Part shown: piece after piece, positions 10,894 through 17,286 of the stretch
How the letters are laid out: the number at the start of each line of letters is the position of its first letter
Numbering within the stretch: the first letter of the stretch is position 1
IMG/VR virus record: IMGVR_UViG_3300046791_000457
Coordinates: 1 to 55,666 of that record
Strand: one strand, 5' to 3'
DNA from: a virus
DNA length: 55,666 bases
Notes under the pieces: model-generated
Database searches by the model: none
Seen by the model: only the letters and a program-made list of their open reading frames with translations
What the model was told of the DNA's origin: nothing
Made by a program: the position numbers and the translations under genes

Positions 10894-11280
10894 ATGTCGG
10901 CAGTAGGCGGACCAATCCAAGAGATCTCGATCCGGGGTCGCATCTTCCCGGTCGCCGCGGACTCGGACGGCACGTTCAAGCCGGGCGGGTACTCGTCGAC
11001 CATCGAGCCGAACGGCGACGGCGCGACCGCGCGCCCGCTGCTCGAGGCCAAGAACTGGATGCTCGAGAGCGTCAACCTCAGCGTCGACCACGACCGTGGC
11101 GACGTGGAATTCCTGAACGAGCGCGTCGCGGACGTCGAGTTCTCCCCGATCTCGGTCACGTTCATCTCGGGCCACACCTGGTCCGGGCGCGGCAAGCTGA
11201 CCGGCGAGGTGGAGTTCAACCACCAGAAGTCCACCGCAGCGGTCTCCATGGGCGGACCGGGCAAGGCCGCTCAGCAGTGA
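10894..11280 (+). CDS. Tail tube protein
   Basis: The 128-residue subunit of the inner tube, immediately after the sheath. It is beta-rich (IQEISIRGRIFPVAADSD, NLSVDHDRGDVEFLNERV, FISGHTWSGRGKLTGEVEFNH), which is the Mu gpM/tube pattern. It has a strong AAGGAG ribosome site and an 86-nt leader with the same GGGCAAGAGCGCA hairpin as the capsid leader. Its last 4 nt overlap the first gene of the glycan cassette, so the cassette is translationally coupled to a very abundant structural protein. Confidence 0.88.
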   Translation: MSAVGGPIQEISIRGRIFPVAADSDGTFKPGGYSSTIEPNGDGATARPLLEAKNWMLESVNLSVDHDRGDVEFLNERVADVEFSPISVTFISGHTWSGRGKLTGEVEFNHQKSTAAVSMGGPGKAAQQ

Positions 11281-12314
11281 GCAAGCGGGTTCTTCTCACC
11301 GGCGGCTGTGGCTTCATCGGAGGCCACACCGTCGAGCACTGGCTGGCGAATACCGACTGGCACGTCATCGTGCTCGACGGGCTTCGCCACGCCGGCAACG
11401 TGCGGCGGCTGACCGAGGCGGCCAGCTTCGACCCGTCGCGCGTCACCCTGCTCTGGCACGACCTGCAGGCCCCGATCTACCCGGAGCTCGCCGCCGCCAT
11501 CGGCCACGTCGACTACGTGGTGCACATGGCCAGCGACAGCCACGTGGACCGGTCCATCGACGACCCGGTCCCGTTCGTCAAGAACAACGTGGCGGTCACC
11601 CTGACCATGCTGGAGTTCGCCCGGGCCGCGAAGCCCGAGAAGTTCATCCAGATCGGGACCGACGAAATCTTCGGCCCGGCGCCCGACGGCGTGAGCCATG
11701 CCGAGGATGCAGCGCTCCGGCCGTCGAACCCCTACAGCGCTTCGAAGGCCTGCCAGGAGGCCATCGCTTTCGCCTACTGGCGGACCTACGGCGTGCCGGT
11801 GATCTGCACCCGCACCATGAACAACTTCGGGGAGCGCCAGAACCCGGAGAAGTTCGTGCCCAAGGTCATCCGCCAGGTGGCCGCCGGCGAGGTCGTCACG
11901 ATCCACGCGCAGCCGCTGGTGCTGGGCGCCGAGCCCGGGAACCCGGAGCACTGGCTGCCCGGCTCGAGGGTCTGGCTGCACGCAAGGAACCATGCCGATG
12001 CCCTGAAGTTCATCCTGGAGAACATCGAGCCGGCGAGCTACGCCCTCGGCGCGATCGACCCGACGCGGTTCAACGTCGCCGGCGAGCGCGAGCTCGACAA
12101 CCTGGCGATGGCCCACCTGATCGCCCGGATCCTGGACAAGCCGCTGCACTTCGAGCTGGTGGACTTCCACGGCAGCCGGCCCGGGCATGACCTGCGCTAC
12201 AGCCTCGACGGCTCCGCGCTGCGCGCCGCCGGGTGGCGGCAGCCGATGACCATGGACGAGTCCTTCGAGAGGTCGGTGCGTTGGACGGTCGAGAACGAGC
12301 TGGCGAAAGCCTGA
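11277..12314 (+). CDS. NDP-sugar 4,6-dehydratase-like SDR enzyme (RmlB type)
   Basis: An extended short-chain dehydrogenase that would convert a nucleotide sugar (dTDP-glucose in RmlB) to its 4-keto-6-deoxy form. The NAD-binding motif GGCGFIG lies at residues 9-15. The dehydratase-specific Thr-Asp-Glu (GTDEIFG, T128-D129-E130) and the catalytic Tyr153 and Lys157 (YSASK) are all present. NNFGERQNPEKFVPKVI and RYSLD match RmlB landmarks. GTG start, GTGA overlap with the tail tube stop. First gene of a seven-gene glycan cassette inside the tail operon. The substrate is not readable from sequence. Confidence 0.88.
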   Translation: MSKRVLLTGGCGFIGGHTVEHWLANTDWHVIVLDGLRHAGNVRRLTEAASFDPSRVTLLWHDLQAPIYPELAAAIGHVDYVVHMASDSHVDRSIDDPVPFVKNNVAVTLTMLEFARAAKPEKFIQIGTDEIFGPAPDGVSHAEDAALRPSNPYSASKACQEAIAFAYWRTYGVPVICTRTMNNFGERQNPEKFVPKVIRQVAAGEVVTIHAQPLVLGAEPGNPEHWLPGSRVWLHARNHADALKFILENIEPASYALGAIDPTRFNVAGERELDNLAMAHLIARILDKPLHFELVDFHGSRPGHDLRYSLDGSALRAAGWRQPMTMDESFERSVRWTVENELAKA

Positions 12315-13012
12315 CCCGCGCCCCCACACTGGCCGCGCTGGCCTCGATTCCGACGAGGGCCGAGATCCTCGAGGGCACGCTGCGCAGCCTGCGCCCGCAG
12401 GTGGACCGGATCGCGGTCTACCTCAACGGCTACCCCGAGGTGCCGGCCATCGTGCACGAGCTCGCCGACGAGCACGTGCTGTGCCCGGAGAACGGCGGCG
12501 CCGAGCGGAAGTTCTGGTGGGCGGACAAGCACGACGGGATCTACCTCTCGTGCGACGACGACATCACCTACCCGCCCGACTACGTCGAGCGGATGTGCGC
12601 CGAGCTCGAGGAGCACGGCGGGATCGTGAGCGCCCATGGGCGCGTGTACCTGGGCAAGCCCTACGACGTCGAGCGGGTCGAGCCCGGTAGCGTCGGGGTG
12701 TACCACCGGCGCGTCGACTACGGCCGGCCGGTGAACCACTGCGGCACGGGCGTCGCAGCATGGGATGCGCGCACCGTGCACGTCCCGACGGAGTGGCCGC
12801 TCCGGAACATGGCCGACATGCAGCTCGCCATGTGGGCGCAGGGCGCGAGAGTTCCGATGTGGCTGATCGCCCATCAGGCCAACTGGCTGAAGTCGCCCAC
12901 GATTCACGACACCCAGAGTCTCTGGCACCAGTCGAGGATCCAAGGTCATCGCAAGCGGAGCGAAGTGCTCCGCGCATTCGGAGAGAGAGTCGGCTGGAGG
13001 ATGGTTTGCTAG
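12281..13012 (+). CDS. Family 2-like glycosyltransferase
   Basis: A GT-A fold enzyme. Near the start it has TLAALASIPTRAEILEGTLRSL, the usual first beta-alpha unit. IYLSCDDDITYPPDYVE carries an Asp-Asp-Asp metal/nucleotide site. Further on come YGRPVNHCGTGVAAWDAR and NMADMQLAMWAQ, the acceptor-side region. The start is uncertain: TTG 12281 has GAGAGG 8 nt upstream, GTG 12233 gives a longer form and CTG 12311 a shorter one. It overlaps the dehydratase gene and is followed by the fused methyltransferase/transferase, whose ribosome site sits in its last codons. Confidence 0.78.
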   Translation: MDGRERAGESLTRAPTLAALASIPTRAEILEGTLRSLRPQVDRIAVYLNGYPEVPAIVHELADEHVLCPENGGAERKFWWADKHDGIYLSCDDDITYPPDYVERMCAELEEHGGIVSAHGRVYLGKPYDVERVEPGSVGVYHRRVDYGRPVNHCGTGVAAWDARTVHVPTEWPLRNMADMQLAMWAQGARVPMWLIAHQANWLKSPTIHDTQSLWHQSRIQGHRKRSEVLRAFGERVGWRMVC

Positions 13013-14358
13013 CGAGCGAGCGACAGCGACAGATCCGGCGTGCCGAGGCGCGTCGGCGTTCTCAGCTGGCTCAGCCGGTCCGGGAATGGATGCGCTGGGA
13101 CGTGATCAACGCGTTGCTCGACGCGGCCAATGGTCGGAAGTTTCTCGAAATCGGTGTGCAGGCAGGCGTATGCGGTGCCCGAGTGCGCGCTGACGAAAAG
13201 TGGGGGGTAGACCCCGAAGCGCGCGCGGGAGCCTCAACGGGCTACGCGCGCTTTTTTGCGTCCGGCTCCGACGAGTTCTTCGCGCAGCTGCCCGCCGACG
13301 AGCTCTTCGACGTGGTCATGGTCGACGGCCTGCACCACGCCGACCAGGTCGAACGCGACACCCTGAACGCCCTTCGGCACCTGGCCCCGGGCGGGGCCAT
13401 CGTACTGCACGACTGCAACCCCCTGACCGAGATCGCCCAGCGCGTCCCGCGGGCGACGGGGGTCTGGAACGGCGACTGCTGGAAGGCGATGGCGCGCCTG
13501 CGCGCGCGCGGCGATGTCGACGCCTTCACGATCAACGCCGACCACGGCGTGGGCGTGGTCCGCAAGGCACGGACCGTGGCGCCGCTGACGGGCCTGCCCG
13601 AGGTGCTGACCTGGGCGGACCTCGAGGCCGACCGCGCTCGGCTGGTGGGGCTGGTGGAGCCCGCCCGATGGCTCGACCGGCTGGGCCCGCCATACTCGTT
13701 CGGTCGGCTGGTGGTGGTCTCCGCCATCTTCGGTGGCCGGGACGCCCCGCTGCCGATCCCCGCTGGGCTCGACATCACCGAGGCCGTGCTCTTCACGGAC
13801 TGCGTGAGCCCCAAGGATGCGCCCGGCTGGCGGGTGGTCACCTGCGACAAGGCCGCCGATCCACGGCTCGCTGCGCGGCGGGTGAAGACCCTGGCGCTCG
13901 AGCTGGTGGACTCCGAGGTGCTGCTCTGGATCGATGGCCGCATCCGGCTCACCGGGGTTCCCCTTCGGCGCCTGGTGACCGAGGCGCTCGAGGAGGCCGA
14001 GCTCGCCGGCTTCCCGCACCCGTGGCGGCGCTGCGCGTACGCGGAGGCCCTGGAGTGCGGGACCCTGGGCCTGGCCCCGGTCGATGCCCTGGCCGACCAG
14101 GCCGCGGCCTACCGCGACGAAGGGCTGCCCGAGAATGCCGGGCTCTGGAACACCATGGTGCTGGCGCGCCGGAACACCCCGGCGATGCGCGAGCTCGGCC
14201 GCTGCTGGTGGGAAGAGATCCAGCGGCACACCGTCCGCGACCAGGTGAGCCTGCCTTACCTGCTGTGGCGCGACGGCATCCGGCCGGGCGAGCTCGGCCC
14301 GGACGTGTACCGCGAGGGCAGCAGCCCGTATTTCGACCGAGGGAGACACGCAACGTGA
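13006..14358 (+). CDS. Fused SAM methyltransferase and glycosyltransferase-like protein
   Basis: Two-domain protein. Residues about 1-190 look like a class I methyltransferase: FLEIGVQAGVCGARV (SAM loop), KWGVDPEA, FDVVMVDGLHHADQVERD and GGAIVLHDCNP. Residues about 230-450 resemble the DUF616/TOD1-type glycosyltransferase-like domain: LVVVSAIFGGRD, VLFTDC, ARRVKTLALELVDSEVLLWIDGRI, FPHPWRRCAYAEA, and ENAGLWNTMVLARRN. TTG start at 13006 is chosen because GGAGG lies 5 nt upstream; the frame stays open further upstream but only as antisense of codon bias. A terminator-like hairpin lies inside the coding region at 13217-13257. Confidence 0.72.
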   Translation: MLASERQRQIRRAEARRRSQLAQPVREWMRWDVINALLDAANGRKFLEIGVQAGVCGARVRADEKWGVDPEARAGASTGYARFFASGSDEFFAQLPADELFDVVMVDGLHHADQVERDTLNALRHLAPGGAIVLHDCNPLTEIAQRVPRATGVWNGDCWKAMARLRARGDVDAFTINADHGVGVVRKARTVAPLTGLPEVLTWADLEADRARLVGLVEPARWLDRLGPPYSFGRLVVVSAIFGGRDAPLPIPAGLDITEAVLFTDCVSPKDAPGWRVVTCDKAADPRLAARRVKTLALELVDSEVLLWIDGRIRLTGVPLRRLVTEALEEAELAGFPHPWRRCAYAEALECGTLGLAPVDALADQAAAYRDEGLPENAGLWNTMVLARRNTPAMRELGRCWWEEIQRHTVRDQVSLPYLLWRDGIRPGELGPDVYREGSSPYFDRGRHAT

Positions 14359-15338
14359 GGGACCTCTTCGAGCAGAGCATCGCGGCCGCTGCGGCGCCGC
14401 TGCGCGGGCTGCGCGTGCTTCTCTTCGGCTTCTCGGGCCGCGGCTTCCCCGGCGGCGACGGCGCCCTCGAGGCGGCCGATGCGCTCGGCCGGCACGGCAT
14501 GGGCGTCACCTACACCCACCAGATGGATCCGGACCTGCCCGCGAAGCTCGAGCTGAGCTACGACGTCGCGATCATCACCAACACCCGGATCGGCGAGCTG
14601 CTCGAGGCGTCCGAGCGGCTGTGGACCTGCGCCGCTGAAACCGTCCTCTGGTTCTGGGACCTGCGCCCGGGCCACGTCGGCGCCCAGCTACGCGGCCGCG
14701 TCGACCGCGCCTACCTCACCTACAATGGGCCCTGGGAGACGCCGCACCACGAGCTCTACTCGCCCGAGCAGTGGGCCAAGGCCCTGGGCGTCCCGGTCGG
14801 CTACTGCCCGCAGGCGGCGCCACTCCGCGCGGCCGAGCTCCAGCCTGGTGGCCCCCGCGTTCTCTTCGTGGGCGACCTGGCCAACGGCACCTACCACACG
14901 GGCCGCAAGGACCTCTGTGAGGCCCTGGGCGCCACGGTCATCAACGAGCGTGCCCGAGACAAGCGCCTGGCCGTCGAGGCGAGCCTGCCCATCCGGTACC
15001 GCTCCGCGTGCTACGTCCTGAGCACGTCGCCGGCGGCGCCCGGCTATACCTCGGTTCGGACCTACTCGATCCTGGCCTGCGGTGGCCTGATGCTCCTGCA
15101 GCGCTTCCCCGGCTGCGAGCGGCTGTTCACGACCGGCGAGCACGCGGTGATCTTCGACGACGCTGCGAGCGCGCTCGCCGTCATGGCGGAGCTGGACAAG
15201 CGCCCCGCGGCGCGCGCGGCCATCGCCGAGGGCGGCCGTGCGCTCCATGCCACCCGGCACACGGTGGCCCACCGGATCCTGTCCATTTGTAATGAAGTGG
15301 CCGGTCTGTCGGACGGCTTCGGCGGTTTCCTCGCGTGA
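14355..15338 (+). CDS. CgeB-like glycosyltransferase
   Basis: A 327-residue protein with the GT-B/CgeB outline. The N-terminal Rossmann part is LRVLLFGFSGRGFPGGDGALEAADALG, then DVAIITNTRIGELLEAS. The second half starts at GGPRVLFVGDLANGTYHTGRKDL and continues with SVRTYSILACGGLMLLQRFPG and HAVIFDD, which match the conserved donor-binding end of the family. GTG 14355 overlaps the previous stop (GTGA), with GAGGGAG as ribosome site. Donor and acceptor are unknown. Confidence 0.72.
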   Translation: MRDLFEQSIAAAAAPLRGLRVLLFGFSGRGFPGGDGALEAADALGRHGMGVTYTHQMDPDLPAKLELSYDVAIITNTRIGELLEASERLWTCAAETVLWFWDLRPGHVGAQLRGRVDRAYLTYNGPWETPHHELYSPEQWAKALGVPVGYCPQAAPLRAAELQPGGPRVLFVGDLANGTYHTGRKDLCEALGATVINERARDKRLAVEASLPIRYRSACYVLSTSPAAPGYTSVRTYSILACGGLMLLQRFPGCERLFTTGEHAVIFDDAASALAVMAELDKRPAARAAIAEGGRALHATRHTVAHRILSICNEVAGLSDGFGGFLA

Positions 15339-15880
15339 CCCGGCTCATCACCCAAATCGCCTGGGACGACCAGAGGAACCTCGGCGCCGCCTACAACCGG
15401 GCCATGGGAGCGCTCAGCCCGGGCGACTGGTGCTGCTTCCTCGACCACGACGCGATGTTCACCTCGCCCGGCTGGCGCGACCAGCTCCGGCAGGCCATCG
15501 CCGAGAACCCCAGGGCGGGTCTGATCGCTGCCTACACCAACCGCATCGGGCGCAAGACGCAGATCGCGCCCGGCTGCCCCCAGTCCCACGACCTGCTCGA
15601 GCACGCCGCGTTCGGCGCCGAGCTCGCCGCCCGCTACGCCGCCGCGGCCCGGGACATCACCGCCGACTCGCCGATCAGCGGCGTCGTGATGGCGATGTCG
15701 CGGGAGACCTGGGCCCTGATCGGCGGCTTCCGGGATGGGTTCTTCGGGGTCGACAACTGGGCCCACCGGGACGTGCGCTCGAAGGGCCTGCGCGTGATGA
15801 TCCTGCCCGGCCTGTACGTCTACCACTGGTACCGCGCCGACGGCGTCGGGCACCCGGGCGCTCCCAAGGCGGCCGCCTGA
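15335..15880 (+). CDS. Short family 2 glycosyltransferase
   Basis: A 181-residue GT-A-like protein. DWCCFLDHDAMFTSPGW carries an Asp-His-Asp site. SGVVMAMSRETWALIGGFRDGFFGVDN is the typical acceptor loop of family 2 enzymes, and the end LYVYHWYR is also usual. It lacks a long N-terminal nucleotide-binding stretch, so it is short for the family and may be a minimal enzyme. GTG start overlaps the previous stop, and its own stop overlaps the next ATG. Confidence 0.75.
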   Translation: MTRLITQIAWDDQRNLGAAYNRAMGALSPGDWCCFLDHDAMFTSPGWRDQLRQAIAENPRAGLIAAYTNRIGRKTQIAPGCPQSHDLLEHAAFGAELAARYAAAARDITADSPISGVVMAMSRETWALIGGFRDGFFGVDNWAHRDVRSKGLRVMILPGLYVYHWYRADGVGHPGAPKAAA

Positions 15881-16332
15881 TGCTGCTCCGCTGCTTCGTG
15901 TTCGATGGCGAGCCGGAGGCCGTCGCGGCCATGGCCGCCTGCGGTGCACCGTGGGTCGTGGCGATGGCGAGCAACACCATCTGGGGCCAGCGCGACTGGC
16001 ACCCGCGGATCGCCCGAGCGCTCGACCTGGCGCCGCGCGACACCCGCCTGCTGCTCCCGACCCTGAACGGCCCGGCCCCGGACTGGCAGGAAGCTGGTCC
16101 CGACAGCCCGGACTTCTTCGCCCAGCGCAAGCACGCCGACGGCTCCCCGAAGGCGGCCGCGGTCGACGTGACGAAGGAGCCCCTGCAGGCGGCCCCGGTG
16201 TGCGCGGTCATCCGCGCGAAGGATGCGCCGATGCTGCTGGGCCCAGGATTCGAGGGCATGCACGAGCGGGCCAGGAAGCTCGGGCGCGTGCTCCTGATCT
16301 CCGACCTCTACCTGGTGCAGCGCCGTGCATAA
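15880..16332 (+). CDS. Unknown protein of the glycan cassette
   Basis: A 150-residue soluble alpha/beta protein not recognised. It begins MLLRCFVFDGEPEAVAAM and ends LISDLYLVQRRA; a TLNGPAPDW segment lies in the middle. The start overlaps the previous stop (TGATG) and its 3' end overlaps the methyltransferase gene by 8 nt, so it belongs to the cassette and probably acts on the same substrate. Confidence 0.6.
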   Translation: MLLRCFVFDGEPEAVAAMAACGAPWVVAMASNTIWGQRDWHPRIARALDLAPRDTRLLLPTLNGPAPDWQEAGPDSPDFFAQRKHADGSPKAAAVDVTKEPLQAAPVCAVIRAKDAPMLLGPGFEGMHERARKLGRVLLISDLYLVQRRA

Positions 16333-16804
16333 AGCCAGCATCGCGATGATGTCCGAGCTCCGCGCGCACGTCCCCGCGGGCGCGCGCGTGCTCGATGTGG
16401 GCGGCGCCGACGTCAATGGCACCTACCGCGAGCTGTTCGGCGACGCGAAGACCTACACATCGCTCGACTATCAGAACGCCGACATCGTGGTGCAGGGCTG
16501 GGACTGGCCACCCGAGCTGGATGGGTCCTTCGACGCCGTGCTCTGCGGCCAGGTCTTCGAGCATGACGAGCGGTTCTGGGTGACGGCGCAGAACATCGCG
16601 CGCGTGCTGCGGCCAGGTGGGCTCGCGATCATCATCGCGCCGGCGGCCGGCGCGGTGCACCGCCACCCGGTGGACTGCTGGCGGTTCTACCCCGACGCCC
16701 CGAAGGCGCTCGCGAAGTGGATGGGCATGGAGCTGCTCGGCTCGAAGCACGCCGACGACAGCCCCTGGCGCGACATCGGCGCCGTGTTCCGCAAGCCCGG
16801 CTGA
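16325..16804 (+). CDS. Class I SAM-dependent methyltransferase
   Basis: A 159-residue enzyme with the Methyltransf_11 outline: VLDVGGADVNGTY (SAM loop), YTSLDYQNADIV (acidic loop), FDAVLCGQVFEHDERF (motif II region) and RVLRPGGLAIIIAPA (motif III). HRHPVDCWRFYPDAP is typical of enzymes that methylate sugars or glycan ends. Last gene of the cassette; the tail chaperone gene begins 83 nt later. It likely caps or decorates the glycan made by the upstream enzymes. Confidence 0.8.
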   Translation: MHKASIAMMSELRAHVPAGARVLDVGGADVNGTYRELFGDAKTYTSLDYQNADIVVQGWDWPPELDGSFDAVLCGQVFEHDERFWVTAQNIARVLRPGGLAIIIAPAAGAVHRHPVDCWRFYPDAPKALAKWMGMELLGSKHADDSPWRDIGAVFRKPG

Positions 16805-16887
16805 TCGCCTCGAGCTGATCGCCGCCCGACCTACGCGCGCCCCGCTGAGGGGCGAGGCGCGCGCATGCACATACAGGGAGACAGTTC

Positions 16888-17286
16888 ATGACGGCATTGA
16901 TGAAGAGCAAGGAGCCGGTGGTGGCCCCCGAGGTCGCCGAGGCGGAGTTCGAGAGGTTCTTGGCCACGATGGACCTCGATGCGGAGCACGTCTGGGACAA
17001 CCAGGAAGACGAGTGCCGCGTGATTCTGCGCGCCATGGAGTCGGGCGCGCTGGTCCTCAACGACGACGGTGAGCCGGTGTTCACCCCGAGCGAAGGTGAG
17101 GTGATCATCTTCGCCGAGCCCCGCGGCCGCCACCGGTCGCAGATGTCGAAGCAGTCCGACGCGATCAAGAAGAGCTTCGCGCTGATCGCCGGCATCACCC
17201 AGCAGCCGCCCAAGCGCTTCGAGGACATGCGGCAGCGCGACCTCAAGGTGGTCGAGGCGGTCGTCATGCTTTTTCTTGTCGGGTAG
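16888..17286 (+). CDS. Tail assembly chaperone (G-like, zero frame)
   Basis: A 132-residue helical protein before the tape measure gene. Chaperones at this place bind the tape measure protein while the tube polymerises. FERFLATMDLDAEHVWDN, then DDGEPVFTPSEGEVIIFAEPRGRHRSQMSKQ, then a helical end with VVEAVVMLFLVG. The stop (17284-17286) comes just after a T-run at 17270-17274 from which a -1 shift opens a long second frame. This is the G/GT arrangement of tailed phages. Ribosome site AGGGAG before ATG. Confidence 0.8.
   Translation: MTALMKSKEPVVAPEVAEAEFERFLATMDLDAEHVWDNQEDECRVILRAMESGALVLNDDGEPVFTPSEGEVIIFAEPRGRHRSQMSKQSDAIKKSFALIAGITQQPPKRFEDMRQRDLKVVEAVVMLFLVG
17270..17276 (+). promoter_or_regulatory. 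Candidate -1 frameshift site
   Basis: The zero-frame codons are ATG CTT TTT CTT GTC GGG TAG. A Phe tRNA on TTT (17272-17274) can slip back one base onto TTT (17271-17273) within the five-T run and then read TCT. The next zero-frame stop is only 10 nt later. The heptamer is not a canonical X XXY YYZ in phase, so single-tRNA slippage is assumed. Confidence 0.6.

Follow-up and report, generated by a model that had tools for sequence, protein, structure and literature searches.

A seven-gene cassette between the tail tube and probable tail assembly chaperone genes of a contractile-tailed phage probably serves to glycosylate and methylate a virion protein in the cytoplasm. Glycosylation of the phage's own virion is favored by the placement of the genes in a late operon, the soluble character of the enzymes, the conserved core that is shared with other viruses, and the recurrence of part of this gene set in the head modules of unrelated phages. 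The preliminary description of this DNA had proposed that the phage, by means of a complete pathway, glycosylates its own tube, sheath or capsid or else alters the host surface glycan late. The glycan cassette in the virion module is well upheld; the complete pathway is not.

Organization of the cassette

The window, that is, the whole stretch of DNA analyzed, is IMG/VR record IMGVR_UViG_3300046791_000457 (positions 1 to 55,666; 55,666 bases). A contractile-tail virion module with sheath, tube, chaperone, tape measure, baseplate and capsid genes occupies 6.6–24.6 kb of the window. Within it, seven plus-strand genes (11277–16804) are flanked on the left by the tail tube gene (10894..11280, plus strand; phrog_4699, 3e-29), the stop of which, at 11280, overlaps the first cassette gene. 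On the right is a plus-strand gene (16888..17286) that matches phrog_4648 (1e-16, function unassigned) and, weakly, phrog_166 (tail protein, 0.0018), and that is judged to be a probable tail assembly chaperone from its position ahead of the tape measure. The neighbors are thus the sheath and tube upstream, and the putative chaperone and tape measure downstream. The cassette encodes, in order, a dehydratase, a GT-A glycosyltransferase (GT), a fusion of a methyltransferase with DUF616 (MT-DUF616), a GT-B-type enzyme, a small GT2, an orphan protein (X) and a second methyltransferase. This chain of genes, coupled to the tube stop, agrees with the earlier account, except that successive genes overlap by 1–34 nt rather than 4–34 nt. 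The first GT may start at a TTG codon (12281) or a CTG codon (12311), giving a 34- or 4-nt overlap with the dehydratase gene, respectively; the alignment of homologues favors the CTG start.

No promoters were found upstream of the cassette by consensus. A GC-rich inverted repeat (16826–16863) separates the last cassette gene from the chaperone gene. The AT skew of the window flips sign at about 39000, which suggests that the right part is perhaps transcribed off the other strand.

Dehydratase and supply of sugar donors

The first gene (11277–12314, plus strand), which has a GTG start and a 4-nt overlap with the tube stop, encodes an RmlB-like NDP-sugar 4,6-dehydratase (PF01370, Epimerase/GDP_Man_Dehyd, 5e-47). 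Its best PDB matches are dTDP-glucose 4,6-dehydratases (2hun, 1e-49), the nine best chains all being so annotated, and the protein retains the glycine-rich NAD motif, TDE and YSASK, as expected from the RmlB-type enzyme with intact TDE and YxxxK described before. The "complete" deoxysugar pathway claimed at the same time is reduced to this one enzyme: the 55,666-base record contains no match to PF00483, PF00908, PF04321 or PF01041, corresponding to RmlA, RmlC, RmlD and DegT aminotransferase partners, respectively. Sugar donors must therefore come largely from the host. Relatives of the dehydratase in other phages had varied neighborhoods and provided no functional lead. The gene is present in the window only and is missing from the cassettes of the other carriers; it is an accessory gene and not a defining part of the cassette, the conserved core of which consists of four transferase genes.

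Core transferases and second methyltransferase

The first core gene ends at 13012 (plus strand). Its product has a weak family match by sequence and an invariant DDD motif (alignment A3, n = 9), and its AlphaFold model (nine homologues, mean pLDDT 70) resembles KfiA (Foldseek, 2e-10) and heparosan synthase 2, which are both GT-A enzymes. The MT-DUF616 gene (13006–14358, plus strand, 7-nt overlap) encodes a protein with Pfam matches to Methyltransf_24 (1.6e-12) and to the GT-A-like domain TOD1_MUCI70 (DUF616; 1.4e-8), and the aligned sequences are 54–61% identical to the window protein (alignment A1, nine sequences). The model of this protein has a pLDDT of 82 and a pTM of 0.59, which leaves the domain arrangement unsure. 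The model matches Mg-dependent O-methyltransferases, the sugar methyltransferase MycE and also GT6 blood-group transferases. The GT6 matches would belong to the DUF616 half, which was detected by Pfam as well.

The third core gene (14355–15338, plus strand, 4-nt overlap) encodes the GT-B-type enzyme (PF13524, Glyco_trans_1_2, 9e-18), for which identity to the window protein is 56–63% (alignment A2, eight sequences), and the fourth (15335–15880, plus strand, 4-nt overlap) encodes the small GT2-type glycosyltransferase (phrog_26101, 1.7e-17; phrog_14179, 3.2e-17), with an invariant DHD motif (alignment A4, seven sequences). Comparison of the GT-B enzyme and the MT-DUF616 profile with solved structures by sequence gave no useful homology. 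Gene X (15880–16332, plus strand, 1-nt overlap) belongs to no Pfam or PHROG family and had no IMG/VR relative by pattern search. The last gene (16325–16804, plus strand, 8-nt overlap) encodes the second SAM methyltransferase (PF08241, Methyltransf_11, 2e-8), which was also found by tblastn at 59–63% in two of the carriers described below, L106 and L113. The cassette thus has four GT domains and two methyltransferases, in line with the three to four and two counted initially, with X falling outside the identified glycan enzymes. No transmembrane candidate was detected in the cassette proteins examined with the Kyte-Doolittle scale, a crude test for membrane anchoring, so there is no sign of a flippase, a ligase or a membrane anchor.

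Carriers, insertion sites and descent

A search for the cassette in related phages, as had been suggested, recovered the same core: 10 IMG/VR records encode it, or its beginning, at 50–64% identity to the window. Because L110 and L111 (99.9%) come from a single virus and the L057 fragment shows 100% identity to L058, extending into the cassette, these represent eight viruses besides the window. The block starts behind the tube gene in six of them (L058, L104, L105, L106, L107 and L113) and is followed by the chaperone gene in five, the L058 sequence ending before this point. In L110/L111, the block is flanked by the major capsid gene and the gene preceding the sheath, and in L109 it is behind the tape measure; the tube–chaperone site is closed in both. 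The same gap measures 9–191 nt in 44 of the 46 non-carrier loci that have both genes. The cassette therefore occupies three sites overall and is found among head or tail genes in every carrier. Its minimal form is seen in L106 (tube, GT, MT-DUF616, GT-B, GT2, methyltransferase, chaperone).

In a sheath tree of 49 rows, the cassette rows all fell apart from the 40 non-carrier rows, and two state changes were counted, one of them being L057, which is actually a carrier. Since this was a quick tree with long branches, a single origin of the cassette is likely but falls short of proof. The cassette seems to be a long-standing trait of the lineage, relocated within the late region.

The cassettes of L104 and L110 include a sulfotransferase, while that of L058 includes a DegT-like aminotransferase, read from sequence. 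Additional methyltransferases are present in L058, L105, L107, L110 and L113, and a second DUF616 is present in L104, L105, L107, L110 and L113. Tailoring sets of this kind, with methyl, sulfo, amino and dehydratase functions, are typically associated with glycans. Identity between L105 and L107 is 89.7% as far as the tube stop, falls to 74% through most of the cassette and to about 71% in the GT2 and chaperone genes, and is back at 88% beginning with the baseplate hub. Between these two viruses, dS is 0.87–1.58 for most cassette genes (0.43 for one methyltransferase) versus 0.19–0.64 for the flanks, while dN/dS of the cassette genes is 0.12–0.21. Purifying selection acts on the cassette genes, and the high dS relative to the flanks, combined with the low dN/dS, fits the exchange of a working block; the genes appear to be swapped between phages as one block. 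The tape measures (L105:16119-17465 and L107:15172-16449) align at 31%, with hubs that are 93–94% identical, and the exchanged block seems to include the chaperone and tape measure. HNH-endonuclease-like genes occur in the cassette region of L058 (L058:17150-17881) and, near both block ends, of L105 (L105:8897-9307 and 14179-14889). It is possible that they drive the movement of the cassette.

Recent insertion with broken genes was rejected on the basis of the shared core in relatives, the sheath tree and dN/dS. Such an insertion, together with absence of the cassette from all relatives, had been named beforehand as speaking against the proposal; what we found were eight further carriers with open frames.

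Related gene sets and known systems

Unrelated phages also have a Methyltransf_24/DUF616/GT2 triad, differently ordered and fused. It is located between the large terminase and portal genes in L146 and L147, between the portal and major head protein genes in L138, a probable Sphingobacterium prophage, and ahead of the protease and capsid genes in Cellulophaga phi12:1. Apart from this probable prophage, bacterial genomes contained only distant relatives of the methyltransferase. In phi12:1 (gp39–gp40) and phi18:1 (gp40–gp41), as in the window, the Methyltransf_24 and DUF616 domains come together in the structural module, as adjoining Methyltransf_24 and DUF616-GT2 proteins. Unlike in the window, DUF616 is fused to GT2 rather than to the methyltransferase, the first GT and GT-B are absent, and the module is a siphovirus head module. 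The same two genes of phi18:1 were called DNA methyltransferase and glycosyltransferase in the structural module (PMC11946311), whereas later proteomics that included phi18:1 virions examined protein methylation and predicted no methyltransferase (PMC13288928). The two reports thus disagree on whether phi18:1 encodes methyltransferases. The phi12:1 gp39 "DNA methylase" (L159:17902-19574, KC821613.1) resembles a glycan O-methyltransferase and pairs with the DUF616-GT2 protein; its annotation may mislead. The uncultured podovirus ctKR88 (MW202524.1; L160:2012-10843) likewise has a series of genes for glycosyltransferases and methyltransferases near the downstream side of its major capsid gene, with relatedness shown for the second methyltransferase only (41%) and functions taken from the depositors' annotations.

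Mycobacteriophages (Che8, Corndog and Myrna) glycosylate their capsid and tail tube, according to Freeman et al. 2023 as cited in PMC12363180. Those systems resemble the present one in their phage-encoded glycosyltransferases, but here a single cassette brings together four transferase domains and tailoring by methyl, sulfo or amino groups. Neither the first GT nor the core GT-B enzyme had an INPHARED match, and no mycobacteriophage was among the hosts listed for MT-DUF616 and GT2. Homology to the mycobacteriophage virion glycosyltransferases was not detected, at a search sensitivity that leaves weak homology possible. In the chlorovirus PBCV-1, a methylated capsid glycan is built by GT and GT-GT-MT proteins that the virus encodes and that are mostly soluble (PMC9614988). 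This machinery (A064R, GT-GT-methyltransferase; A061L), in which a fused methyltransferase caps the virion glycan, is a good mechanistic parallel; PBCV-1 differs in being an algal virus with L-rhamnose chemistry and in having the methyltransferase C-terminal, compared to N-terminal in the window fusion. In the literature searched, which most subscription journals lie outside, we found no description of the gene set or of the MT-DUF616 fusion. Phage enzymes are known to glycosylate virions; what looks new is the enzyme set and its variable accessory genes.

Function of the cassette

If the cassette modifies a virion protein, as we consider probable, soluble phage enzymes would be made late in infection alongside the tail and head proteins and would use nucleotide sugars of the host to assemble a short glycan in the cytoplasm. 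The first sugar would be put on the virion protein by one transferase, the remaining transferases (GT-A, DUF616, GT-B, GT2) would lengthen the glycan, and the two methyltransferases would O-methylate it. The window dehydratase would provide an NDP-4-keto-6-deoxy sugar, either finished by host enzymes or transferred unchanged. Accessory genes would swap among phages, altering the outer decoration, and the glycan might shield the particle against binding by host or predator factors, or add to its stability. The data show the genes and their families, the conservation of the core, the sites, the selection and the recurrence; acceptor, step order, sugars and benefit are what we infer in this model. 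As in known phage virion glycosylation, the glycosyltransferases are phage-encoded and their genes are sited among virion genes in all carriers. More tentatively, the cassette could constitute a phage "serotype" locus, with a core stem glycan on the particle and exchanged tailoring blocks (methyl, sulfo, amino, deoxy) that vary the coat as bacteria vary their capsules, and with the reduced methyltransferase/DUF616/GT2 version doing likewise in the head modules of unrelated phages.

Enzymes acting on the host envelope would be expressed from a late operon just as well, and the cassette might instead change the host surface glycan late in infection, so that progeny would not re-adsorb to debris or to infected cells. 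Phage serotype-conversion systems exist, enzymes that transfer sugars or methyl groups are also encoded in bacterial envelope gene clusters, and the methyltransferase has its distant bacterial relatives. We nevertheless consider this unlikely: no membrane protein, flippase, polymerase or undecaprenyl-linked GT was found in any cassette examined, and the nesting in structural operons is steady, unrelated phages included. Specifically, the membrane flippase or polyprenyl-linked GT of gtrABC-like O-antigen modification has no counterpart among the cassette proteins, which gave no transmembrane candidates. The weak assignment of several cassette enzymes, and a scan of the virion-module proteins in which no Ser/Thr-rich tract stood out as the acceptor, would also accord with a late takeover function directed at another cytoplasmic target, such as a host protein or small molecule; the repeated siting among head and tail genes, not early genes, makes this quite improbable. 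That the enzymes hypermodify phage DNA with sugars is very unlikely, despite the DNA glucosylation known in T-even phages and the annotation of some methyltransferase homologues as DNA methylases, given that the record has no thymidylate synthase/dCMP hydroxymethylase match (PF00303), the cassette sits in the structural module, and the Methyltransf_24 enzyme is closest, as a model, to small-molecule O-methyltransferases. A decaying or selfish insertion without phage function, to which the HNH-like genes inside the block of L058 and L105 and the varying cassette site might point, is the least credible reading, since the core is kept over deep divergence with open frames and low dN/dS.

Virion glycosylation has been documented in few phages, and with the conserved enzyme set, the fusion and the triad one can search different lineages for candidate glycosylated phages. 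Glycosylation by the virion-module enzymes can be tested in cultured Cellulophaga phi18:1 and its relatives. Our results also suggest that some "DNA methylases" encoded beside glycosyltransferases in structural modules are glycan O-methyltransferases.
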